Below are positions 2,852 through 31,731 of a DNA stretch of 32,435 nt, piece after piece. The stretch is from an uncultured Chloroflexota bacterium (lineage in GTDB: Bacteria > Chloroflexota > Anaerolineae > Aggregatilineales > Phototrophicaceae), in assembly GCA_937870805.1 (NCBI GenBank), contig CALMZT010000806.1, forward strand, positions 1-32,435. The letters run 5' to 3'. Below the pieces are notes generated by a model. That model was not told the origin of the DNA. It saw nothing but the letters and a program-made list of their open reading frames with translations, and ran no database searches. The position numbers were made by a program, and so were the translations under genes. Position 1 is the first letter of the stretch, and every line of letters begins with the position of its first letter.

Positions 2852-4366
2852 CTATGCCGCGCGTTTAACAAAGCCCAACCCGACAAAATCAAAATCCTCG
2901 ACAATGTTCTCGGCAAATCCTGGCGTAGACTCGATGATTGAACGACGCTGCTTGTAGTGCCCCTTCAGGTGAGTGTTGCCGTCATCGGCAAAGTCCACAA
3001 TAAATGCGACGTTGGGCATTCCGTTCTTTTTCTCGCGCAGACCGCGACCGATGCGCTGACGCATCGCAACTTCCGCCTTGCCCCCGCCCGCAAGAATCAC
3101 CATCCCGACAGCGGGCACGTCTACGCCTACGTCGAGAATGGTTGAGCCGATCAACACATCGATCGTACCGCCTTTAAGCTTGTTCAGAGACGCCTTGCGC
3201 TTTACTTGGTCATCTTCACCGTAAATGTAAGTGGCGCGCAGCCCTGCCCCCTTCATGAGCGTGTTGAGGGTCTTCCCATGCTCTTTATGCTGCACCAGAA
3301 CCATTACCGACATCCCGTAGCGCACGGCGCGGAGACATTCGACAACAATATGCTTGTTGCGCAGTTCGAACTCTGAAATACCGATTTTATAGGCACGCTG
3401 CCAAGGGGTGCTGCGATATAGCTTTGCGGGCTTTTCCTTCATGGTGACAAATTTAAAGTAGGGCTTCGCTAGAATGCCGCGCTCGATCAGCAGCTGTTCC
3501 GATACGGTAATCGCAATAGGTCCGGAAGAGGCCATCAGTCGCATATTGGCCTCTTCGCTGTCGCGCATGAATGGCGTCGCGGTGAGTGCCAGACGATAAT
3601 GTGCGCTCTTGCAATGCTGAAGAATCTCGTAATAGCTGTTGCCGGAAGCTTCGTGCGCCTCTTCGAGAATGACCAGCTCGAACATGCCGAGCACTTCTAT
3701 CATTTTCGCCTTGCGCTTAATCTGACGAGTTCGCGCCTCGTTGGACATTTCTGGGTCGGGCTCTTTCAGCCAGGACACAATCGTTTGCACCATCCCGCAG
3801 GTTACTTCTTTGGACACCTGAATATTGCCATCGCCAAGAATCGCAACACGCTTACCCAACGAAGCAAAGCTTTCGGCCATTTGATACATCAGCACGCCGC
3901 GCGTAGTCAGAAACAGGGTGGGGCGTGCAATGCGGGCTGTTGCGAGCTTACAGATACGCGATTTACCGCCACCCGTTGCCACCTGGGCGATCATTGCGCC
4001 ATGACGCAGCAGCTTGTCAACGGTGTGACGCTGATAGTCATAGCGCGGGTCTTCTGGGAAATCATCAACGACAGGGTGCTCCGGCCCCAGCGGTGCAGGA
4101 AAGGGTTTTCTGACGACGCTTACCTTGTAGCCGCAGTTCGTCAGATGCTGCTTCACCATATGCACAAAGCCACGCGGAAATGTAGCCTCGGTGAACGCGA
4201 AGAAGCTCGAACGACCGTCCCAGCCGCCTCGCGCAAACGCGGCCATATGCTCAACCCCATCCACGCGATACGACAGAATGCGCTGCGTTTCAAGTAACGC
4301 CTGACGGTCCGCGCCTATGAGCTTTCCGGTTACTGCGTTATGTGCGATTTGAATGGTTGCCGTCAT
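2852..4366 (-). CDS. SF2 DEAD/DEAH-type helicase, UvsW-like
   Basis: Walker A-like QVATGGGKSRICK, LVILEEAHEA (DExH), LALTATPF (motif III), QRIGRGLR (motif VI). Confidence 0.85.
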   Translation of the reverse strand: MTATIQIAHNAVTGKLIGADRQALLETQRILSYRVDGVEHMAAFARGGWDGRSSFFAFTEATFPRGFVHMVKQHLTNCGYKVSVVRKPFPAPLGPEHPVVDDFPEDPRYDYQRHTVDKLLRHGAMIAQVATGGGKSRICKLATARIARPTLFLTTRGVLMYQMAESFASLGKRVAILGDGNIQVSKEVTCGMVQTIVSWLKEPDPEMSNEARTRQIKRKAKMIEVLGMFELVILEEAHEASGNSYYEILQHCKSAHYRLALTATPFMRDSEEANMRLMASSGPIAITVSEQLLIERGILAKPYFKFVTMKEKPAKLYRSTPWQRAYKIGISEFELRNKHIVVECLRAVRYGMSVMVLVQHKEHGKTLNTLMKGAGLRATYIYGEDDQVKRKASLNKLKGGTIDVLIGSTILDVGVDVPAVGMVILAGGGKAEVAMRQRIGRGLREKKNGMPNVAFIVDFADDGNTHLKGHYKQRRSIIESTPGFAENIVEDFDFVGLGFVKRAA

Positions 4367-4387: not shown

Positions 4388-4416
4388 TTGGAGTATAGTC
4401 AGTAGTGACTTATATT
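4388..4416 (+). promoter_or_regulatory. Candidate promoter TTGGAG-17-TATATT with a dyad motif copy (4395-4412) in the spacer
   Basis: Hexamers at 4388-4393 and 4411-4416 with a 17-bp spacer; lies between divergent helicase and ParB-like genes. Confidence 0.55.
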
Positions 4417-4431
4417 AACGCACATTACTAC

Positions 4432-5079
4432 ATGCCCAAAATTACAATGTCCGAAGTGCCGATCAGGTCACTGACGCCGAATGTCTTCAACACTAACGCT
4501 GTTTCCCCAGAGTCTGAAATCAAGCTTGAAAATAGTCTCAAGCGATTCGGGGTTTACAAGCCAATTATCTGTCGCGAGCTAGATGACGGACGCCTAGAAA
4601 TTATTGGTGGCGAACATCGCTGGCGTGCGGCAAAGAAACTTGGCTACGAAACTGTTCCGATTGTCAATCTTGGCATCGTTCCCGACGCGAAAGCGAAGGA
4701 AATCATGCTGGTAGACAACGGGCGTTACGGCGAAGACGATACGCTGGCGCTGGCAGAGCTGCTACAAGACCTCGGTAACGCCGATGAGATTCTGAGTTTT
4801 CTGCCAATGTCGTCCAGTGAGCTTGATGCGATCTTCTCAAGCACAAGTATAGCCCTCGATGATCTGGATTCTGATTCAGACGACCTCCCTGACCTAAGCG
4901 CCGCCAGTTCCGCGCCTCTCAAAACTCACCAAATCATGCGTTTCAAGGTTCCCTTCGAGGACTCTGAGCGAATCCAAAAACGCATCGAGTACGTCATGAA
5001 GACTCAAGGATTTACCGAAGACGATTCAATGACCAATGCCGGCAACGCGCTGGTACATCTGTTAAAGGAAGAAAAGTAA
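4432..5079 (+). CDS. ParB-like nuclease-domain protein (ParB/Srx fold), copy 1
   Basis: VPIRSLTPN...EIIGGEHRWRAAKKLGYETVPIV matches ParB N-terminal motifs; GTG at 4405 lies inside the dyad, so ATG 4432 is preferred. Confidence 0.8.
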   Translation: MPKITMSEVPIRSLTPNVFNTNAVSPESEIKLENSLKRFGVYKPIICRELDDGRLEIIGGEHRWRAAKKLGYETVPIVNLGIVPDAKAKEIMLVDNGRYGEDDTLALAELLQDLGNADEILSFLPMSSSELDAIFSSTSIALDDLDSDSDDLPDLSAASSAPLKTHQIMRFKVPFEDSERIQKRIEYVMKTQGFTEDDSMTNAGNALVHLLKEEK

Positions 5080-5243
5080 TGACAAACCGTTTCCCCGAGT
5101 GTGAAGACTGCGCTTTTAATGGAGTTGAGCCCGCAATCTGTGACGAATGTTACGACGCGGACCAATTTGAGTATGGCGAAACGGAAGACAGCGGAGTACG
5201 AGCAACCCCGATCTACTTTCGCGACTGGAAGAACGCAGCATGA
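5079..5243 (+). CDS. 54-aa CxxC...CxxC putative zinc-binding mini-protein (not in the ORF track)
   Basis: Translation MTNRFPECEDCAFNGVEPAICDECYDADQFEYGETEDSGVRATPIYFRDWKNAA; TAATG overlap with the upstream gene. Confidence 0.7.
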   Translation: MTNRFPECEDCAFNGVEPAICDECYDADQFEYGETEDSGVRATPIYFRDWKNAA

Positions 5244-5419
5244 CCTTCGTATCGGCGCTGCGACACAAAAATGGCAAAAAGAACCTTCTTCACATCAATA
5301 ACGCAAAGTCTTTCGAGGAGGCGGTCATGGCAGTACATGCTACTTATCCAGGCGCAACAATCCTCGTTGCCTGCGCCCCAAAGTCCGAAGCTATCCTTAC
5401 CGAGAAAGTGCAAGCATGA
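5240..5419 (+). CDS. 59-aa hypothetical protein (not in the ORF track)
   Basis: Translation MTFVSALRHKNGKKNLLHINNAKSFEEAVMAVHATYPGATILVACAPKSEAILTEKVQA; 4-nt ATGA overlaps at both ends. Confidence 0.65.
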   Translation: MTFVSALRHKNGKKNLLHINNAKSFEEAVMAVHATYPGATILVACAPKSEAILTEKVQA

Positions 5420-6075
5420 GTGATTCTGAAATCAGAATGGAATACTGGCCCATCGATAGTATCGTGCCCTATGAGCTCAACTCTAAAAAGCATGATAAGG
5501 AGCAGGTGGGAAAAATCGCCACTTCCATTCAACGCTTCGGGTTTGACCAGCCTATTGTAGTGGACAAGGACGGCGTCATCATCAAAGGGCACGGTCGTCG
5601 CCTTGCTTGCATTCAGCTTGGGCTGAGGGTGGTTCCGGTGCTGGTCCGTGCCGACCTCACTGCCGAGCAAGTCAAGGCAGCGCGCGTTGCCGACAATCGC
5701 GCGGCGGTTGGAGATATTGATACCGCAATGCTGAAGCTTGAGCTCGAAGGCATTGATCTGGACGATCTGCGGGGCATCTTCGATGACAAGGAGTTGGAAT
5801 TCCTTGATGCGGACATGACCGAAATGAGTGAAGACGCCTTTGCTGATGATCTTGACCAGGCATTAGCCGCCCAGGATGTTGCAACGCAGGAAAAGATGCA
5901 AGTAGCCGCCGATAAACGGGTTCCCATCGCAAAGGCGCTGGGTTTCAAGGACATTGCCGGGGCTGACCTGATTTATGTAAACAGGTTGATGGCGCAGTTG
6001 GAAGCGCAATATGGCGCACGGGGCGAAGGCGCCTTCGTGGGGTTCGTAAAAAGTCTCGTGGGTGATAAGTCATGA
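5416..6075 (+). CDS. ParB-like nuclease-domain protein, copy 2
   Basis: WPIDSIVPYELNSKKHDKEQVGKIATSIQRFGFDQPIVVDKDGVIIKGHGRRLACIQLGL is typical of phage ParB-like proteins. Confidence 0.85.
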   Translation: MSDSEIRMEYWPIDSIVPYELNSKKHDKEQVGKIATSIQRFGFDQPIVVDKDGVIIKGHGRRLACIQLGLRVVPVLVRADLTAEQVKAARVADNRAAVGDIDTAMLKLELEGIDLDDLRGIFDDKELEFLDADMTEMSEDAFADDLDQALAAQDVATQEKMQVAADKRVPIAKALGFKDIAGADLIYVNRLMAQLEAQYGARGEGAFVGFVKSLVGDKS

Positions 6076-6425
6076 ATGACGTATATCGGGGAATACCTAA
6101 GCTGGTCCGGGTTGGGTGCTTCCAATTCAAGGTTGAAATTGGCGACCTTGAAGATCATGAGGTGGAGGCTAACTTCGGGCACTGCAACCTTGTGAGTCAA
6201 AAAATACGGTTGCGACCCGGCATGAGCGCGCAAAACCTGGCGAACACGTTTATTCACGAAGTCATGCACGCAATCCACTGGTTTCATGACCTGAAGGACA
6301 GCGACACCGAAGAAGACTTTACTACCCGTGGCGCAAATGGCCTAGTCGCCTTCTGGCAGGACAACCCGAAAGCCGTCGCATGGTGGAGTCGTACCCTGCT
6401 GCTCAAAGACAGGGATCAGCCATGA
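6072..6425 (+). CDS. putative zinc metallopeptidase-like protein (HEVMH)
   Basis: FIHEVMHAIHWFHD HExxH motif; ATGA overlap. Confidence 0.65.
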   Translation: MNDVYRGIPKLVRVGCFQFKVEIGDLEDHEVEANFGHCNLVSQKIRLRPGMSAQNLANTFIHEVMHAIHWFHDLKDSDTEEDFTTRGANGLVAFWQDNPKAVAWWSRTLLLKDRDQP

Positions 6426-6667
6426 ATCAGACGCGCCTGGGCTCCTTTATAGAATCCTTGATGAACATCGTTATTGGGTTCGTCGTGGCACTGATTTCTC
6501 AGACCATTATTTTCCCAATGTTTGATATTTACGTATCCATGACGACTCACCTGGCGATCAGCGCCTGGTTCACGGCGATCAGCCTGGTGCGTAGCTACAT
6601 TATTCGCCGCTGGTTTAATGCACGTCTGAGAGCTACGGCCCAAAAGCTTGCGGGAGTGACGGCATGA
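6422..6667 (+). CDS. small phage membrane protein (about 81 aa)
   Basis: MNQTRLGSFIESLMNIVIGFVVALISQTIIFPMF...SLVRSYIIRRWFN, resembles common small phage membrane proteins; ATG 6422 overlaps the upstream stop. Confidence 0.65.
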   Translation: MNQTRLGSFIESLMNIVIGFVVALISQTIIFPMFDIYVSMTTHLAISAWFTAISLVRSYIIRRWFNARLRATAQKLAGVTA

Positions 6668-7371
6668 AGTACATCATCGATAAGCGCTTCACATCGCGGG
6701 TAGGGCGCTCTGACCGCATCCTTGAGGTGGCTGAGTCTTTTGGCATCGGGCTGGAAGAGAAGGAGTTTGTGGTATTCGACAAGCTGGAGCTTGAAGTCAA
6801 CCGAGGAGACGTGGTGTATATCACCGGACAGTCTGGTTCCGGCAAGAGCTTGTTGCTAAAGGAGCTGGAGCGACAGATGGGAGAGGAGGGGCTAAAGGTC
6901 GCCAATCTCGACCAGATCGAGCTGCTTCCCATTCCGCTGATTGACCAGATCGGAAAAGATACCAATGACGCCATTCGGTTGCTGGGCTCTGCCGGGATCA
7001 ATGACGCCTACCTGTTCGTTCGCAAGCCGTCTGAGCTGTCTGACGGACAACGGTATCGCTTCAGGCTGGCAAAGGCCATTGAAACCGATGCTGACGTGTG
7101 GGTTGCTGATGAATTCCTGGCCGTGCTTGACCGCATCGCTGCGAAGGTTATTGCCTATTCGCTTCAAAAGACAGCCCGCCGTAATGGCAAAACGGTAATC
7201 GTGGCAACCACCCACACCGACATGGTGCCCGACCTCGGACCCGACATTTATATCGAGAAGCGCTACCGGGAAAAGCTCCGTATTGACGTAATTCATGACG
7301 CGGCAAATCAGGCTGGAGAACGCGTGGTTACGCGGGATGAGCTCAACAACATGCTCTTAAAGGCGATGTGA
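6664..7371 (+). CDS. ABC-type ATPase domain protein (soluble, non-transporter)
   Basis: Walker A GQSGSGKS, signature-like LSDGQRYRFRLAKAI, Walker B-like VWVADEFLAVLD, H-loop region VIVATTHTD. Confidence 0.85.
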   Translation: MKYIIDKRFTSRVGRSDRILEVAESFGIGLEEKEFVVFDKLELEVNRGDVVYITGQSGSGKSLLLKELERQMGEEGLKVANLDQIELLPIPLIDQIGKDTNDAIRLLGSAGINDAYLFVRKPSELSDGQRYRFRLAKAIETDADVWVADEFLAVLDRIAAKVIAYSLQKTARRNGKTVIVATTHTDMVPDLGPDIYIEKRYREKLRIDVIHDAANQAGERVVTRDELNNMLLKAM

Positions 7372-7499
7372 TGAACACACTTATGGACTTCATTAAGGCG
7401 GCTCTTGCACCGGCGCTCATCGCCGTTGCTTTATTCCTAGCGTGGCTATCAAACAAGAACGACGATGATGACTGGCCGCAACATGGTGCCATGACATGA
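7371..7499 (+). CDS. 42-aa single-TM mini-protein (not in the ORF track)
   Basis: Translation MNTLMDFIKAALAPALIAVALFLAWLSNKNDDDDWPQHGAMT; overlaps at both ends. Confidence 0.6.
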   Translation: MNTLMDFIKAALAPALIAVALFLAWLSNKNDDDDWPQHGAMT

Positions 7500-8548
7500 G
7501 ACTCGGAAAAAGAATCCCTACCCCAGTCGGGGAAGAGGCGCTGTGGGAGCTGATTCCAGACCCGACAATCATTCTCGAAACAGACGAGATTGTTATTAAG
7601 CGAATCCCAAGGGCGGGAAATCACGCCCTATCGATCCTTAAGGATATCTATGTCGAGAAGGGCACGATGGACGATTGGAAGACCCTCTGTGAGCTGCACT
7701 ACAAGGGCCATACGCTCGCCGCAGGGTCCAGATTCTACCGATGCGTCTACGAGCAGAATGGCGTACCGTCACCGATTGGGATCATGGTCTTTGCGAACCC
7801 ACGACCGCTCGACCGCGACCGTATGCGGGTGTTTCCCCATATGAAGCCCAACCAGACCGGCAAGGACACAACGATGATGAACAAGCATCGTATCCGCGAG
7901 GGGCTGAATAAAGATTTCACGTGGAACAACCGCACGGTGCTCGACACGATGTATCGGTCCGGAGGCATCGCCTATCGGTTCAAAAATCTTGCCTATCGCA
8001 TGTACTGCTGCGAGTATGGAAAGAGAGTTGTCGAAAGCCGTTCGTCGATGGGCAAGTTCAACCCATTCTCAATCAAAGCCGGGATGAAGTTCACCACACC
8101 CACTTCAGCGAACGCGCTGCAAGCCGGTATCGAGTTCTTTCGGTCCAACTTCATAGCGTCGCCACACGACGTAGTGGCGCTGCTGGAAGAGCTTGCGGCC
8201 ATGCCGGAGGGCATTCGTGTGTTTACCGAGCGCAAGCTGCGGGAGTTCTATTACCGTCATAGCTCGATGGAGAAATCGGGCGACAAGCGAATGCTGGGAA
8301 CCTCGCGCGTGGATGCGCTGGATATCGGCTATGTGCTGCGCCAGGTGCAACAGCTGGTATTTGGGGCGACCGTGTACTGGGTCTGGATGAATCCCGATAT
8401 CACTTATGAAAAGATCAACGGCAGACGCACGTTGCGCTTTGCCAAACTTCCCAGTCGTTTGCCACTTTTGACATTCGACAACCAGGGTCCAAATGAGCCA
8501 CTGCGGCTCGACTTAATCAACGGAGTAAAAGATGCACCTAACCTCTAA
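7496..8548 (+). CDS. GNAT-like / Mom-like putative acyltransferase (350 aa)
   Basis: Segment SSMGKFNPFSIKAGMKF resembles the YNPFxEKAGM segment of GNAT domains paired or fused with soluble ABC ATPases; sits beside the ABC ATPase. Confidence 0.5.
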   Translation: MRLGKRIPTPVGEEALWELIPDPTIILETDEIVIKRIPRAGNHALSILKDIYVEKGTMDDWKTLCELHYKGHTLAAGSRFYRCVYEQNGVPSPIGIMVFANPRPLDRDRMRVFPHMKPNQTGKDTTMMNKHRIREGLNKDFTWNNRTVLDTMYRSGGIAYRFKNLAYRMYCCEYGKRVVESRSSMGKFNPFSIKAGMKFTTPTSANALQAGIEFFRSNFIASPHDVVALLEELAAMPEGIRVFTERKLREFYYRHSSMEKSGDKRMLGTSRVDALDIGYVLRQVQQLVFGATVYWVWMNPDITYEKINGRRTLRFAKLPSRLPLLTFDNQGPNEPLRLDLINGVKDAPNL

Positions 8549-8849
8549 GCAGCTCAACGTGTTGGGCGTCATTGTGAACGGAAATGGCACGCAGAATGGA
8601 GTCTTTATCCCCTGTGACCTTGACCAGATTATCGAACGCGTTGAGTACAAGCCAACAAAAGCGGCCATTCATTTCTCCATTCGCAACCTGATTCGCAAAG
8701 GATTGATTGAAAAAGTCAGCACTGAGCTACGCCGGGACCGCAGACGGGTGATTATCGCGCCGACGGAACTGGGTCGGTCTTCGTACAATTCGGGAGCAGA
8801 TTTGTCCTACATAGCGGACGAAGACGACACTTTTGGGGTCGAATCTTGA
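8532..8849 (+). CDS. winged-helix DNA-binding protein (105 aa)
   Basis: MHLTSKQLNVLGVI...AAIHFSIRNLIRKGLIEKV...RRVIIAPTELGR reads as a wHTH. Confidence 0.6.
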   Translation: MHLTSKQLNVLGVIVNGNGTQNGVFIPCDLDQIIERVEYKPTKAAIHFSIRNLIRKGLIEKVSTELRRDRRRVIIAPTELGRSSYNSGADLSYIADEDDTFGVES

Positions 8850-8898: not shown

Positions 8899-8930
8899 TT
8901 ACTGTAAAGTCACTAGTGACTTTACAGTAA
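8899..8930. promoter_or_regulatory. Perfect 32-bp palindrome ttactgtaaagtcactagtgactttacagtaa, strongest copy of the dyad
   Basis: Equals its own reverse complement; core AAGTCACTAGTGACTT. Confidence 0.85.
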
Positions 8931-9303: not shown

Positions 9304-9321
9304 TAAGTCAGTAGTGATTGA
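9304..9321 (+). promoter_or_regulatory. Dyad motif copy TAAGTCAGTAGTGATTGA
   Basis: Matches consensus; followed by TTGACA-17-TACATT. Confidence 0.5.
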
Positions 9322-9428: not shown

Positions 9429-10070
9429 ATGGCTGAAGCAAAAACCGTTGCACCTAAAAGAAGAAAAGGCACCCGTCGGGGCAAGCAGCTAACACCAGCC
9501 GAAAAGGCAGAAGCTATCGCGCTCTGGCGTAACGGATCAACCACGCTCGATGAGCTCGCAGCCCGCTTTGATCGTGACAGAACGACTTTCATACGTCTGT
9601 TCAACGCTGCGGGCGTAACCAAGGGCGAGGCGAGCGCAGAACTAGCGCGCAAGGTCACAGAAGCGGTCGATAGTAGCGCGGTGAACGACGCGGGCGTTTT
9701 AGCTGAACGGATTCGCGAAACCAAAGAAGACCATTACAAGATGATCCGGAGCATGTCAAAACTGACATGGTCCACACTTGCTGCCGCAAAGACCGAAAAG
9801 CGCCCCCTTGCAACCACCATCAACGACTTGAAGGCGATTCAAACCGCCGCACAGATTTTTAAAATCTCGCGGGAGGAGTGCTTTGCTCTATTGGGGCTGA
9901 ACGACAAGGATCGGGAAGATGATACGCCTATGCCCGACTTGGTTCTCCGCGAGCTGACGGCTGACCAGGTTAAGGAAATGACGAATGCTCGCGTCGAGGA
10001 GGACGATCTGGGCATTGCGGCTGGCGCGCCAGAGATGGAGGATTACGACGATGGGAGTCTGCCGCAGTGA
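9429..10070 (+). CDS. terminase small subunit
   Basis: HTH-like N-terminus (AEAIALWRNGSTTLDELAARFDRDRTTFIRLF) immediately upstream of TerL; ATG at 9429. Confidence 0.75.
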   Translation: MAEAKTVAPKRRKGTRRGKQLTPAEKAEAIALWRNGSTTLDELAARFDRDRTTFIRLFNAAGVTKGEASAELARKVTEAVDSSAVNDAGVLAERIRETKEDHYKMIRSMSKLTWSTLAAAKTEKRPLATTINDLKAIQTAAQIFKISREECFALLGLNDKDREDDTPMPDLVLRELTADQVKEMTNARVEEDDLGIAAGAPEMEDYDDGSLPQ

Positions 10071-12370
10071 GTCGGCATTCGCCATCGGTAATTTACCTTC
10101 ATCCGAAGCAGATGGAGGTTTACCGTACCGAGTCCAGGTTCAAGGTTGTCGTGGCGGGTCGCCGGTGGGGGAAAGCGCTGGCTCTTGATACGCCTATACC
10201 AACTCCGCTTGGTTGGACCACGATGGGCGACCTAAAACAAGGCGACTTGGTGTTCGATGAAGCTGGCAAACCATGCAAGGTTGTCTACGCGCACGACGTA
10301 ATGTACGACCGTCCGTGTTACGAAGTTGAGTTTTCGGATGGCGAAAAGGTTATCGCGGACGGCGAGCACCTGTGGTCAACGTGGACTCACGCTGCTAGGA
10401 AAAACTCGCGGCGTAATCCCAAAGCGGGTTACGGCCCCTCCGTTTGCACTACCGAAGAGATTGCAAAAACGCTGACGATAGGAGTGCGCGAAGATTCGAA
10501 TCACAGCATTCAGTGCGCTCTGCCGGTAGAGTATTCAGAGGCAAATCTTCCAATCGACCCGTACATCTTCGGAATGTGGCTTGGGGATGGCGACAGTCGA
10601 TGCGCCGCGATAACGTGTGGCAGTGACGATCTTGAGCACGTATTGAATCAGGTCGAAATGGCGCTTGGCGCTAGACCGTCGTCACTGACGCAGGATGGGC
10701 GGTCGAAAGCGTGGCGCGTTTCTCTCACCACGGGTCGCGGGTGCGAAAGTGGAATTCAAAAGCATCTTCGCGACTTGGACGCATTGGGCAACAAGCACAT
10801 ACCGCGCAACTATTTGGAGTCTTCTGTTGAGCAGCGCATCGCACTTTTGCAGGGACTGATGGACTCAGACGGAACTTGCAACGGCCATGCGGGGAACTGT
10901 GAATTCACATCTACCAGCGCAGCGTTAGCATCAGGCACGCTCGAACTTGCTTTGTCACTCGGCATTAAGGCGACAATGACAGAGGGTCGCGCAACGCTGT
11001 ATAGCACGGATTGCGGTGCGAAGTATCGAGTGAAATTCTCGACTGATTTGCCAATCTTCAGAATGGAGCGAAAGCTTGCGAGGCTTCCTAAAACCAGAAG
11101 GTTTCGTATCGATCACAGATTCATAAAGGCAGTGCGCCTCGTAGCGTCCGTGCCTGTTCGCTGCATTACCGTGGACAGTCCGAACAGCTTATATCTCTGC
11201 ACTCGCTCGTTCATTCCAACGCATAACACCCAGCTAGCTAAAACCGCGATGCTGAAGTATGCCCGCGTGCGCAATCGCCTGATCTGGTATGTCGCGCCCA
11301 GCTACCGCATGGCAAAACAGATTATGTGGCCGGAGTTGATTGCTTCGATTCCGAAGCGGTGGATTCAGAAAATCAACGAAACGACCTTGTCGATCAAGCT
11401 GGTCAACGGAACGCGTCTCGAACTGAAGGGCGCCGACAATCCCGACTCGCTGCGCGGGGTGGGTATCCACTTTCTGGTAATGGACGAAGTGCAGGATATC
11501 GACCGGGAAGCCTGGTCCAAGGTGCTGCGTCCGACGCTAGCGTCAACGGGCGGTCATGCGCTGTTTATCGGTACGCCTAAAGCCTACAACTTTCTGTATG
11601 AGCTTTATGCGCTGGGGCAGATTGAGAAAAACCAAATCGCAAAACAGTGGCGAAGCTGGCAATTCCCGACCATGACCTCGCCCTTCATTCCGCTTGAGGA
11701 AATTGAAGCCGCGCGCGACGACATGGATGAGAAGTCGTTCAATCAGGAGTTCAATGCGAGCTTCGAAACGATGAGCGGACGGGTGTATCACTCCTTCGAC
11801 CGCAAGCTGCATCTCAAGAAGTGCGAGTTCAATCCCGCCTTGCCGATTTGGATTGGGCAAGACTTCAACATTGATCCAATGTCGTCGGTCATCATGCAGC
11901 CACAGGAAGACGGCACGGTCTGGGCGATAGACGAAATTGTGCTGTTTGGCTCCAATACGGAAGAGGCGTGCGACGAAATCGAACGCAAGTATTGGCGTCA
12001 CAAAGACAATATCGTTTTGTTTCCGGACCCTGCGAGCCAATATCGACAGCACGCACGCGGAGAGTCCGACCTGGATATTTTCAGAGAGCGTGGCATCAAG
12101 AAGCAGAAGTTCCATCGCAAGCACCCCGCAGTTGCCGACAGGGTAAACGCGGTGAACCGCATGTTGAAGTCGGCAAAGGGCGCCATTCGATTTTACGTCG
12201 ATCCTAAGTGCAAGCACTTGATTCAATCGCTCGAGCAGACGATTTACAAAAAGGGCGGACGCGACATCGACAAGGACGCAGACATTGAGCATAGCGGTGA
12301 CGCGCTTGGATACTGCATTGAGTTCATGTTCCCGGTTCGCAACGTCGAGATTATTGGCGTATCAATTTGA
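10067..12370 (+). CDS. terminase large subunit with an in-frame intein
   Basis: Extein: VVVAGRRWGK...TQLAKTAMLKYA (split Walker A), VMDEVQDIDREAW (Walker B-like), nuclease-like C-terminus with IGQDFNIDPMSSVIM. Confidence 0.9.
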   Translation: MSRHSPSVIYLHPKQMEVYRTESRFKVVVAGRRWGKALALDTPIPTPLGWTTMGDLKQGDLVFDEAGKPCKVVYAHDVMYDRPCYEVEFSDGEKVIADGEHLWSTWTHAARKNSRRNPKAGYGPSVCTTEEIAKTLTIGVREDSNHSIQCALPVEYSEANLPIDPYIFGMWLGDGDSRCAAITCGSDDLEHVLNQVEMALGARPSSLTQDGRSKAWRVSLTTGRGCESGIQKHLRDLDALGNKHIPRNYLESSVEQRIALLQGLMDSDGTCNGHAGNCEFTSTSAALASGTLELALSLGIKATMTEGRATLYSTDCGAKYRVKFSTDLPIFRMERKLARLPKTRRFRIDHRFIKAVRLVASVPVRCITVDSPNSLYLCTRSFIPTHNTQLAKTAMLKYARVRNRLIWYVAPSYRMAKQIMWPELIASIPKRWIQKINETTLSIKLVNGTRLELKGADNPDSLRGVGIHFLVMDEVQDIDREAWSKVLRPTLASTGGHALFIGTPKAYNFLYELYALGQIEKNQIAKQWRSWQFPTMTSPFIPLEEIEAARDDMDEKSFNQEFNASFETMSGRVYHSFDRKLHLKKCEFNPALPIWIGQDFNIDPMSSVIMQPQEDGTVWAIDEIVLFGSNTEEACDEIERKYWRHKDNIVLFPDPASQYRQHARGESDLDIFRERGIKKQKFHRKHPAVADRVNAVNRMLKSAKGAIRFYVDPKCKHLIQSLEQTIYKKGGRDIDKDADIEHSGDALGYCIEFMFPVRNVEIIGVSI
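10175..11227 (+). other. Intein (351 aa) with LAGLIDADG-type endonuclease in the TerL Walker A motif; predicted class 3
   Basis: Starts ALALDTPIPTPLGW, ends FIPTHN before T; block B GEHLW, block F VPVRCITVDSPNSLYL, DOD motifs FGMWLGDGD and LLQGLMDSDGT. Confidence 0.88.
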
Positions 12371-27141: not shown

Positions 27142-27159
27142 TAAGTCATGAGTGACGTA
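27142..27159 (+). promoter_or_regulatory. Dyad motif copy TAAGTCATGAGTGACGTA containing the J start codon
   Basis: ATG 27148-27150 lies inside the motif. Confidence 0.5.
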
Positions 27160-30100
27160 ACAGTTAAGCCAGACAGTGCGATTGCGGGCGCAGGTGGGGG
27201 AGGCTGCTTTCGTGCGGGCGCACAGATTCAACTACAAGGCGGCAAAACTGTTGCCATTGAGTCGCTGAAAGAAGGCGATGAGGTACTTGCGTTTGATGAG
27301 CAGGGCGAAATTCATCTGGCGAAAGTCACCAAGGTTCACTACCATGCCGACCCGCAACCGATTCTGAAGGTCAAGTTCTGGCGCGGCGAAACCTATATCA
27401 CGCCTAACCACTGGGTACTAAACCAGTACGGCTCGTTTGTCGAAATGGGAAGTCTGACCGACCACGACGCGCTGGTGGACGGCATGGGGCACCTTCGACC
27501 AATTATCGGCGCTGAATTAATCGGACATGAGCCCGTATGGAATCTCACTGTTGAGCCGCACCATACGTTTATCTGTGATGGCGTGCGAGTACATAACGGT
27601 GGGCATCGTGAGCGTCACCCGGTAATCGCGGGCGCAGGTGGCGGAGGCAAACCCAAAGGTGGCGGGGGCAGGGCAGCGGTTGAAGCCGATGACAGCCTTC
27701 AGTCTCGCGCAATGGTTTCGCTGCTGGACTTACTGGGCGAGGGCGAAATCGGAGGATTGGTAGCGGACGCTCAGACGATCTTTCTGGGCGACGTGCCCCT
27801 ACAAAACGCTGACGGAACCTATAACTTTAATGGCGTATCGTGGGACTACAGAAACGGCACTCAAGATCAGTTGCCCATTAATGGTTTCGCCGATGTTGAG
27901 ACGCCCTACGTTGTAGGCACGCGGGTCAAGACAGATTTATCCAAAACTGTTTCGATCACAAACCCGAACGTCGATAGCGTTCGGGTGATAGTCACGCTGC
28001 CCGCGCTGAGCAGTCAAAATCCTGAGAACGGAGATATCAACGGCTCCTCTGTTCAATACAAATTTCAGGTATCCAAAGACGGAGGCCCGTTTACAGACGT
28101 AAATGCTGGGTATACAGCGACCCCGGTTGCCGCGACCGTTACGCCGGAAGGAACCTCTACCTCTAGCACCGCTGTTTCCGTAACAACGACGGACGTAGGT
28201 AATGTGGGTATGGAGATGACGGTCAAGCTCGCATCAACTACAGCGCCTGTCAGAACGCCAGTTTCGATAGTTCTACAGCCGCAAACGTATGTGGGCGCAG
28301 CGTGGGTAGATTATGGCCGTCAAATCGCGATCAATAGGAGCGCCACTTCTGGAAGCGGAAGTGCGGTAGGTTTTATTAAAATAGTTACAGATGCGGTAAT
28401 TAGCCAGCTTGGGGCAGGCACATACTATTCGATAGAAGGACACAGTAAAGTCAGGTTTCGCGTCATTAGCGCAACCCATCCATCTACGCTGACGATTGAA
28501 AATGTCAAAAAGCTCGATGGTGCCCCAATCGTCACCGTAACGGGCAAGGCGCGGTCAAGGTATCAGCGGCACCATCTCATCAAAATGCCAAAGCCGGGGT
28601 CCACCTGGCAGCTGCGCATGATACGAATCAGTCCAGATTCGACCAGTGCGGCGACTGCAAATGAAACCTACTTCGATAGCTACGTAGAGATTGTCGATGC
28701 GATGCTCTCATACCCTAACTCGGCGCTGGTTGGGTTAAGAATCGACTCTGCGCAGTTCAATCAAATTCCGAGTCGGTCTTATCTGGTGAAGGGGCTCTAT
28801 ATCAGAACGCCCTCGAACTACGATCCGATCACCAGAACCTACACCGGCACTTGGGATGGCACGTTTGTTTATCGAGTGTCCAGTAACCCCGCGTGGATTT
28901 TGTATGACCTGCTGCTGCACAAGCGGTATGGCTTGGGCCGGTTCATTCGCGAGGATCAGGTAGATAAAGGAAAGCTATACCAGATAGGTCGCTATTGTGA
29001 CGAGCAGGTGCCTGATGGCTTTGGCGGAATGGAGCCCAGATTCGCTATCAATACCGCGATTCAAACGCTCAGTGAGGCATACAGACTAATCTCCGAGATA
29101 TCTTCGGCGTTTCGCGGAATGATGTACTGGGGCGGCAGCATGGCCGCATTCACCCAGGACAGCCCCGCCGATTCCAGTATGGAATTTAGTCAAGCGAACG
29201 TTGTAGATGGCTTGTTTCACTACACAGGCTCTTCGAGAAAAGACAGGCACTCTGTTGTGCTGGTGGGATGGAATGACCCAGAAGAAAGATTCAAGCGCAA
29301 GCTTGAATATGTCGAAGACCCTGAGCTGATAAAGCGCTACGGGATTCGAAAGCTCGAAACCGTTGCATTCGGCTGCACCAGTCGTGGGCAAGCTGCGCGG
29401 GTTGGCCGATGGATTTTGTATACCGAACGCGACGAGTCTAACCTGATTAGCTTCAAGGTCGGTATTGACTCCGCACTTGTGCTCCCCGGCGAAATCATCA
29501 AAATTCACGATCAGTTCAAATCCGGCAAGCGCATGGCAGGACGGCTAGTTTCAGTTACCCTGACATCCGCGACGCTTGATGCGCCTTTGAAGATCGCAGC
29601 TGCTGGCGCAACGATATCGATTCGCGCAGCCGATGGAACCTTCTACGAAAGGTCGCTAATACAGTCGGCTGGCGAGTATACGGCGGTAAGCTGGACATCG
29701 CCGTTGCCCGCACTACCCGTACCAAATGCGATATGGATGGTGACGGAACCCAGTCTCAACCCGGTTCTCGCGCGTGTGGTCAAGGTTGCTCAGGATGGTA
29801 TGTCAAAGAGCACCTTTGCCATTTCCGCCATTGAGCACAACCCGGCTAAGTATGCGGCAATCGAGAACGGGCTTGTGTTGGAGCGCCCAAAGACGAGCAT
29901 TGTAAGTGCGCGTCCCGGTGTAGTTACGGACCTGATCGCATTAACGGAGATGGTAGAGCTGAACCCAGGCATCTTTGGTGCCCAAATCGCCGTGAGCTGG
30001 GCTGCGCCGTCGCTTGCGACCAATTACAAAATATTCTGGCGGCTTGGCAGCGAGAACTGGAAAGAGGCGACTTCCGATATACCGTCATACGACATCAAGA

Positions 30101-31731
30101 ATGTCCCAGTTGGTACATATACAATCAAGGTTGCCGCCACAAACGCGCTGGGGCTACTGGGTGATGCGCTTACTATAACCCATACCGTAGCGACCTCGGG
30201 CGTGTCTCCTGATGTCGCAAACCTGCGTGCAAACCCAGACTTCTTAGGTAAAGACCTTCAGGTTGCGTGGGACGCCCTCTCTGGCGCTCAAAGCTATATC
30301 GTTCAGGTTAAAACCACTGCCGACGTTCTTCTGAGAGAAGAGACGGTTATCACTACAGGTTACAGCTATAGCTACGCGAAGAATCTGAATGATGGCGGTC
30401 CGCGTCGTGATGTAAAAATTCTGGTAAAGGCAAAAACGGTCGTGGGTCAGTCCGCAAACTGGACGACCATGACGTTTAGCAATCCCGCACCCGGCGCTCC
30501 AACGGGAGTGACGCTTGAGGCGGGGCCTGGGCAGGTCGGCATTTCTGCGATTCGCCCCGCAGATCAGGACCTCGCTGGGATGATCGTCTGGATGAGCTCT
30601 GACCCGACCGTGCCGATGAATTCGGGAACGGAAATTTACAAAGGCTCAAACAACGCGTACATGAAGACCGGGTTGCAACCCGGCGTGGCAATGAACTTCA
30701 GGGTGGCGTTTTACGATGAGTTCGGGACCGCAGCGCTGACGCCCTCAACACCGTTTGCAGCGACGCCAACCGCAACGGGTGGGATCGTCATGGTGACGAC
30801 GCTTCCTGCGAACCCCGCAGCTGTCGATGGTCAGACCGCCGTTTTTCTTGACGTGGTGGACGCGAATGTACGCGGGCTTTATGGCTGGGACGGGTCTGCG
30901 TGGAAGTTCACACGAGACGGCGGGTATCTGGTTGCAAACTCAGTAACGGCAGATCGCATGAATGTGACGAATCTGTCTTCGCTAAGTGCAAACCTCGGCA
31001 CCATGACGGCGGGCAACATCACGCTCGACGCGTCGGGGTTTATTCGTGGCGGGTCGACCGGGTATTTAACTGGTACTGGGTTCTGGGTGGGCAACCACTC
31101 CGGGACTTATAAATTACATATTGGTGATCCAACCGGGCAGTACTTGGCATGGACGGGCTCCGGGCTCACGATCAATGCGGGTGGAACGTTTAGCGGGGCA
31201 CTGTCAGCAGCGTCGGGTACGTTTGCAGGAAGTTTGAGCGCAGCTACAGGTAGTTTTTCCGGAACGCTTAGCGCAGCGACCGGGACGTTTTCAGGCACGC
31301 TCACGGCCTCCGCGATCAACGCGGTGAATACGATCAATATCGCGGGCAATGCGGTGACGATTCCTGTGTTCGCATATGCAGCCGGCCCTACGATGTTCTA
31401 CTGGGCTGGCGGCGCATATGTGCCAATGGTATCGGCGGCAATCGATAGTGCAGGCGGGATGATTGTTATCCAGGGAGGATTTAGCGGCCCTGGGTCCTAT
31501 AGTGATTCCGGGGCTAGCAATATTGTCGTCGTGCAGAGAGACGGGGTCGTTATTTACTCCGTTGGCGGCTATTCGGCAGGGCCTGTTCATTTTATATATT
31601 CAGATACGCCTGGCGCTGGCGCACACACATATACGCTAGGAATAAGCGCAAATATCGTAAATAACGGAAGCGGAGTGCCTGGTCCAGTTTACGAAAAGAT
31701 GTCTTTATTTTTACTGGAAGCTAAACGATGA
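27148..31731 (+). CDS. tail tip / host-specificity protein J-like with Hint domain near the N-terminus
   Basis: J-like core (PNSALVGLRIDSAQFNQIPSRSYLVKGLYIRTPSNYDPITRTYTGTWDGTF..., PDGFGGMEPRFAINT, AFGCTSRGQAARVGRWILYTE). Confidence 0.92.
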   Translation: MSDVTVKPDSAIAGAGGGGCFRAGAQIQLQGGKTVAIESLKEGDEVLAFDEQGEIHLAKVTKVHYHADPQPILKVKFWRGETYITPNHWVLNQYGSFVEMGSLTDHDALVDGMGHLRPIIGAELIGHEPVWNLTVEPHHTFICDGVRVHNGGHRERHPVIAGAGGGGKPKGGGGRAAVEADDSLQSRAMVSLLDLLGEGEIGGLVADAQTIFLGDVPLQNADGTYNFNGVSWDYRNGTQDQLPINGFADVETPYVVGTRVKTDLSKTVSITNPNVDSVRVIVTLPALSSQNPENGDINGSSVQYKFQVSKDGGPFTDVNAGYTATPVAATVTPEGTSTSSTAVSVTTTDVGNVGMEMTVKLASTTAPVRTPVSIVLQPQTYVGAAWVDYGRQIAINRSATSGSGSAVGFIKIVTDAVISQLGAGTYYSIEGHSKVRFRVISATHPSTLTIENVKKLDGAPIVTVTGKARSRYQRHHLIKMPKPGSTWQLRMIRISPDSTSAATANETYFDSYVEIVDAMLSYPNSALVGLRIDSAQFNQIPSRSYLVKGLYIRTPSNYDPITRTYTGTWDGTFVYRVSSNPAWILYDLLLHKRYGLGRFIREDQVDKGKLYQIGRYCDEQVPDGFGGMEPRFAINTAIQTLSEAYRLISEISSAFRGMMYWGGSMAAFTQDSPADSSMEFSQANVVDGLFHYTGSSRKDRHSVVLVGWNDPEERFKRKLEYVEDPELIKRYGIRKLETVAFGCTSRGQAARVGRWILYTERDESNLISFKVGIDSALVLPGEIIKIHDQFKSGKRMAGRLVSVTLTSATLDAPLKIAAAGATISIRAADGTFYERSLIQSAGEYTAVSWTSPLPALPVPNAIWMVTEPSLNPVLARVVKVAQDGMSKSTFAISAIEHNPAKYAAIENGLVLERPKTSIVSARPGVVTDLIALTEMVELNPGIFGAQIAVSWAAPSLATNYKIFWRLGSENWKEATSDIPSYDIKNVPVGTYTIKVAATNALGLLGDALTITHTVATSGVSPDVANLRANPDFLGKDLQVAWDALSGAQSYIVQVKTTADVLLREETVITTGYSYSYAKNLNDGGPRRDVKILVKAKTVVGQSANWTTMTFSNPAPGAPTGVTLEAGPGQVGISAIRPADQDLAGMIVWMSSDPTVPMNSGTEIYKGSNNAYMKTGLQPGVAMNFRVAFYDEFGTAALTPSTPFAATPTATGGIVMVTTLPANPAAVDGQTAVFLDVVDANVRGLYGWDGSAWKFTRDGGYLVANSVTADRMNVTNLSSLSANLGTMTAGNITLDASGFIRGGSTGYLTGTGFWVGNHSGTYKLHIGDPTGQYLAWTGSGLTINAGGTFSGALSAASGTFAGSLSAATGSFSGTLSAATGTFSGTLTASAINAVNTINIAGNAVTIPVFAYAAGPTMFYWAGGAYVPMVSAAIDSAGGMIVIQGGFSGPGSYSDSGASNIVVVQRDGVVIYSVGGYSAGPVHFIYSDTPGAGAHTYTLGISANIVNNGSGVPGPVYEKMSLFLLEAKR
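27181..27648 (+). repeat. 24-nt direct repeat flanking the J Hint domain (27181-27204 and 27625-27648, 22/24 identical)
   Basis: attgcgggcgcaggtgggggaggc vs atcgcgggcgcaggtggcggaggc; both encode IAGAGGGG. Confidence 0.8.
27205..27597 (+). other. Hint (intein-like) domain, about 131 aa, in J
   Basis: CFRAGAQIQLQGGKTVAIESLKEGDEVLAFD ... TPNHWVLN ... VWNLTVEPHHTFICDGVRVHN followed by G. Confidence 0.85.
31183..31311 (+). repeat. In-frame tandem repeat of GTFSGxLSAAx units near the J C-terminus
   Basis: GTFSGALSAASGTFAGSLSAATGSFSGTLSAATGTFSGTLTA. Confidence 0.75.

Follow-up and report, generated by a model that had tools for sequence, protein, structure and literature searches.

A ten-gene ParB, ABC ATPase and GNAT operon beside phage terminase genes as a candidate DNA-modification module

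What does an operon that joins two ParB-domain proteins, a soluble ABC ATPase and a GNAT-fold protein do for a phage that keeps it directly upstream of its packaging genes? The question is raised by a 32,435-nt stretch of DNA (the window; contig CALMZT010000806.1 of assembly GCA_937870805.1, assigned to an uncultured Chloroflexota bacterium). The window represents an arm of a tailed phage: it encodes terminase, portal, scaffold, major head and tail proteins, and the operon lies at 4432-8849. Our combined findings make it moderately probable that this operon is a late phage module for acyl-type DNA base modification against restriction, similar in role to the Mom protein of phage Mu but not belonging to the Mom family. 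The GNAT enzyme would move an acyl-type group from a coenzyme A donor onto a base of the phage DNA. Working as its obligate partner subunit, the soluble ABC ATPase would use the binding or hydrolysis of ATP to engage DNA or to gain access to a base. The two ParB-domain proteins would pick out phage DNA or be loaded onto it, a part that ParB domains may also play in fusions with phage DNA methyltransferases. Once modified, the DNA would be packaged and would then withstand host restriction or defence nucleases. More tentatively, we propose that the product could be a new DNA base mark, set by an ATP-driven, ParB-guided acyltransferase complex that acts just before packaging, as an alternative to Mom and a core function of its lineage.

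The operon and its GNAT and ABC proteins

The initial annotation described ten overlapping genes at 4432-8849, and this layout held: ten open reading frames (ORFs) lie on the + strand and each of their nine junctions overlaps, six through ATGA (4 nt), two through TAATG or TGATG (1 nt) and the final one by 17 nt.

4432..5079, + strand: ParB1, ParB N-terminal domain (ParB_N 6e-15, phrog_723 6e-63)
5079..5243, + strand: CxxC mini-protein of 54 amino acids (aa), accessory; same-slot homologues in 55/98 relatives
5240..5419, + strand: small ORF of 59 aa, accessory; homologues in 3 loci only
5416..6075, + strand: ParB2 (ParB_N 2e-6, phrog_930 5e-79)
6072..6425, + strand: HExxH (HEVMH) zincin-like protein, accessory (phrog_1233 6e-14); homologues in 33/98 loci
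6422..6667, + strand: small membrane protein, DUF7220 (PF23858 1.2e-26)
6664..7371, + strand: soluble ABC ATPase (ABC_tran 9e-13, phrog_293 2e-45)
7371..7499, + strand: mini-protein of 42 aa with a single transmembrane (TM) segment, accessory; sole homologue in locus L044
7496..8548, + strand: predicted GNAT-fold acyltransferase, 350 aa (phrog_886 8e-94)
8532..8849, + strand: winged-helix protein (wHTH), last operon gene (phrog_900 1e-16); homologue in all relatives

Family searches back most of these gene calls. They returned no curated family match for the 54-, 59- and 42-aa ORFs, and the 59- and 42-aa ORFs have same-place relatives in very few of the 98 loci. ParB1 might begin further upstream, at a GTG codon in frame at 4405.

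The arrangement is far beyond chance: no relative with sufficient flanking DNA departs from the core order. Using the GNAT gene as the query, we gathered relatives from 30 phage records, 905 plasmid records, 274 IMG/VR stretches and 14 bacterial genome loci. Among the ~110 kb SSU5/Nickievirus/RHEph10-like phages and phage-plasmids, whose gene order is identical throughout to that of the window, ParB-ParB-ABC-GNAT-wHTH-terminase small subunit (TerS)-terminase large subunit (TerL)-portal is an invariant core module. Two ParBs, the ABC gene and a divergent helicase were present in 69/69 loci with at least 5 kb of upstream sequence, and wHTH, TerS, TerL and portal in 72/72 loci with at least 4 kb downstream. 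Conversely, when phage records were ranked by TerL similarity, the top 30 (58-64% identity) were the 30 GNAT-carrying records, with the next TerL at 42%. Within this lineage the cassette is core, not cargo. The window differs from the SSU5-like phages in its additional accessory-slot genes (those for the CxxC protein, the HEVMH protein, DUF7220 and the TM mini-protein). The assembly that contains the window has 1354 contigs, of which the window is one. Since the cassette was not found in 97 other searched genomes of the host's family, the contig is either mobile or mis-binned.

The product of 7496-8548 had been called GNAT-like, with structure prediction and Foldseek suggested as a check. A fold unrelated to GNAT would have refuted that call, and the call withstood this check. 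An AlphaFold model built on an 82-sequence alignment (predicted local distance difference test score, pLDDT, 85.6) has a GNAT fold: all 15 Foldseek matches in the PDB at E<=0.001 were GNAT enzymes or GNAT-containing complexes, including dopamine N-acetyltransferase (1e-4), NAT10 (1.4e-4) and Mu Mom (8bv8; 8e-4), and Mom ranked second among viral models (4.5e-5). Pfam gave no match for the window protein itself, while 9/82 of its relatives weakly matched the GNAT domain Acetyltransf_10. GNAT motif A reads R154-x-x-G157-x-A159, with R154 kept in 82/82 and G157 in 80/82 sequences and position 159 mostly A, with S in some. H68, Y69 and K70 are invariant, positions 68-69 forming an HY motif. The KFNPFSIKAGM segment, singled out in the initial annotation, proved to be the GNAT motif-B region (185-199); a motif-B-like SSMGKFNPFSIKAGM is strongly conserved. 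Identity to the window protein is 34-43% for isolates and up to 71% for metagenomic contigs.

In the ABC protein, Walker A, the SDGQ signature, the DE of Walker B, the D-loop and the H-loop are invariant across 29 sequences. GenBank and PHROG names present these proteins as an ABC transporter, and the names are what speaks for that function. We consider it very improbable and reject it on fold and gene content: family searches and the GNAT model revealed no permease or transporter membrane domain in the operon, whether in the ABC protein or in the 350-aa protein; the latter, named an "ATP-binding subunit", has a GNAT fold and no ABC domain; and the small membrane proteins alongside are not conserved across relatives.

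Both ParBs of the window match the ParB domain that some phages carry fused to a DNA methyltransferase (phrog_498; ParB2 at 4e-36), and ParB1 conserves residues of its GGEHRWRA and DNGRYG segments across a 79-row alignment. No ParA-type gene lies next to the operon among the identified window genes (parS repeats were not part of the search); in RHEph10 a ParA is encoded separately, at another place in the genome. The HEVMH protein keeps H62, E63 and H66 in its homologues and falls in an uncharacterised PHROG, phrog_1233; its family-search score against SprT-like proteins (0.0025) did not pass the cutoff.

ABC-GNAT fusions and the exchange with Mom

That ABC ATPases are joined to GNAT domains in other genomes was also borne out. 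A tblastn search with the window ABC found fused ABC-GNAT proteins outside the lineage, in unrelated phages. The ABC domains of window and fusions align with an hhalign E of 3e-29 and have the DEFxxVxDR motif in common, and the GNAT domains align at 9e-7. A ParB gene overlaps the fusion gene in Pasteurella phage Pmp13 and Leptospira phage LE3, with terminase next; ParB precedes the fusion in phage EastWest, and terminase follows it in Gordonia phage AnClar. Fusions in Nonlabens phage P12024S and in Porphyromonas phages have neither ParB nor terminase adjoining. A 720-aa bacterial protein (G039) carries the domains in reversed order, GNAT-ABC (ABC blastp E 1e-33, GNAT hhalign E 9e-8). That fusions occur in two opposite orders points to a complex of ABC and GNAT, whether physical or functional.

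DNA modification by such a pair is not a new idea. Iyer and colleagues write in PMC7824862 that in 2013 they had predicted acyl modification of a DNA base for ABC ATPase-coupled GNATs; the window is a further member of this class. The predicted system (phrog_11143; Tenacibaculum phage pT24) has homologous ABC and GNAT parts, with ParB alongside in several phages, whereas the window has separate ABC and GNAT genes, two ParBs, wHTH, accessory small genes and a fixed terminase neighbour.

The best functional clue is an exchange between ABC-GNAT and Mom. Ten related Mu-like Porphyromonas phages have a common slot at their right end, where mom also lies in Mu. This slot holds ABC-GNAT in five of the ten (006a, 007a, 008a, 009a and 011a) and a Mom homologue in four (012a-015a), and is empty in 010a. 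Between 008a and 013a, the left flank of the slot shows 91% identity across 4.4 kb and the right flank 81% across 93 bp. The one Porphyromonas phage whose left end was read has a Mu-like left end (transposase, MuB, Gam). A formyltransferase-like gene follows ABC-GNAT in 006a, 008a and 011a, the three that were read, and this partner may hint at the chemistry.

The Mom-like role raised in the initial annotation gains real, if indirect, support from the exchange, while membership in the Mom family is not supported. Mu Mom (PF25680; the methylcarbamoylase of 8bv8) and the window GNAT both have a GNAT fold and an HY motif near the domain start. However, the window protein matched neither PF25680 nor phrog_1384 in Pfam and PHROG searches, and comparison of its profile with that of Mom was not significant (hhalign E 0.014). 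Moreover, in Mu, Mom acts without an ABC or ParB partner. We considered transferring catalytic residues from Mom. The S124A change that inactivates 8bv8 falls in the motif-A region, at S114 of the 231-aa sequence, whereas the conserved Ser following strand 5 had been suspected at first; we therefore claim no residue-level mechanism. In Microbacterium phage Antuna (L116 3469-4621), the genes for a ParB-domain protein and a Mom-like protein overlap, which shows that ParB is also paired with enzymes of the Mom type.

In the bacterium, the GNAT-ABC gene lies ahead of genes for DrmE, DrmA (9e-154) and DrmB (6e-58). It is cellular, with reversed domain order relative to the window. The locus (L129 6100-17964 and L131) reads NYN-HTH, GNAT-ABC, DrmE, DrmA, DrmB and a phospholipase-D-like gene, and is DISARM-like with an unusual first gene. 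Any DISARM tie of the window operon runs only via this bacterial homologue. No further GNAT-ABC fusion was found in 393 genomes of that bacterial class; the plasmid matches listed had the SSU5-type ABC gene only, with no GNAT-ABC fusion among them; and DrmA was not found in the window's own assembly, which is ~76% complete. Both window domains occur in the 720-aa protein, which we infer from the name to be a COG2401-type fusion (MK0520), that name being taken only from the annotation of phage Cyrano. A literature search on MK0520, COG2401 and DISARM with an ABC ATPase found nothing useful. We do not claim that GNAT-ABC replaces the DISARM methylase, as a methylase-like gene lies just past the locus.

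An operator-like palindrome and the packaging genes

The operon is bounded by invariant neighbours, and operator-like sites lie in the gaps on both sides.

2852..4366, - strand: superfamily 2 helicase (UvsW-like in relatives), invariant divergent neighbour and cassette limit
4397..4410, no strand: operator-like palindrome AGTCAGTAGTGACT, exact match, in the helicase/operon gap
8899..8930, no strand: perfect 32-nt palindrome with the second operator, AGTCACTAGTGACT (site at 8908), at its centre, in the operon-TerS gap
9306..9319, no strand: third such site, with 1 mismatch, ahead of TerS
9429..10070, + strand: TerS-like protein, invariant downstream neighbour
10067..12370, + strand: TerL with an intein-like insertion

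The motif, AGTCAnnnnTGACT, has 8 window sites at <=1 mismatch, against 0.73 expected. Three places have an exact copy: ahead of ParB1, in the wHTH/TerS gap within the 32-nt palindrome, and 42 bp before a tail gene. The sites at 4397, 8908, 9306, 19227 and 24716 stand in front of the operon, TerS and tail genes. In relatives, the helicase/ParB gap holds a site in 51/77 cases, the wHTH/TerS gap in 58/93 and both gaps in 39/72, and these gaps contain 126 sites in 77 kb, versus 279 in ~1306 kb elsewhere. SSU5 is without the motif. A conserved long palindrome was dismissed, as relatives have the core motif but not the 32-nt palindrome. The motif probably marks a phage-wide regulon, for which the wHTH protein is a candidate binder. 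Because the motif is common to these genes, it suggests that the operon is co-expressed with the packaging and tail genes, which would fit modification shortly before packaging.

The same neighbourhood bears on the main rival explanation, in which the operon is a packaging or genome-maintenance module: the ParBs and the ABC protein would recognise or condense the genome and pass it to the terminase, and the GNAT would modify a protein of the machine. The cassette always lies directly upstream of TerS/TerL, often with an operator in common, and the SSU5 and Cyrano records both end in the wHTH/TerS gap, so that this gap may hold a cos/pac site. Yet in Porphyromonas and Nonlabens phages the homologous ABC-GNAT proteins have no ParB and are distant from terminase, and ABC-GNAT swaps with a Mom homologue. 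On balance we regard a packaging role as unlikely.

The 579-bp gap before TerS also contains a perfect 20-nt inverted repeat (9122-9141/9210-9229) and a 14-nt direct repeat (9015, 9071). The insertion in TerL lies near Walker A (GRRWGKALALDTPIP...PTHNTQLAKT), and the TerL genes of two relatives (L094 and L100) are also split by large insertions. Further along, the N-terminal part of a tail-tip-like large protein (27148-31731) includes a HINT-like segment (GGGCFRAGAQIQLQGG...VRVHNGG).

Candidate targets of the GNAT enzyme and possible significance for phage-plasmids

Proteins are frequent acetylation targets of GNATs, which weighs against DNA as the substrate. Several of our findings likewise speak against a DNA-modification module: the exchange with Mom involves a fused phage relative, not the split version of the window; the profile match to Mom is not significant; the DISARM-like link comes from one genome, with an N6-adenine methylase-like gene just past the locus; and the invariant place by TerS/TerL could mean a packaging role instead.

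A protein target is central to another alternative, a host-takeover acetyltransferase comparable to phiKMV Rac acting on RNA polymerase, with its activity controlled by the ATPase. The GNAT fold is consistent with it, and many phage GNATs are described as predicted protein modifiers in part of PMC7824862. Against this stand the linkage to ParB and terminase, the operator common to packaging and tail genes, the swap with Mom and the bacterial homologue in a DISARM-like locus, and we consider host takeover decidedly improbable.

Leaving aside the contents of the 2013 paper by Iyer et al., the Porphyromonas swap, the operator and the DISARM-like neighbourhood were apparently undescribed before. 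If the operon does modify DNA, ~900 plasmid records from Klebsiella, Escherichia, Acinetobacter and other hosts, together with viral contigs numbering in the hundreds, would carry an unrecognised DNA-modification system labelled as an ABC transporter. SSU5 and Nickie are phages of this group that allow direct testing. ATP-dependent acyl modification would then join the known DNA marks, and the system could account in part for the escape of these phage-plasmids from restriction.

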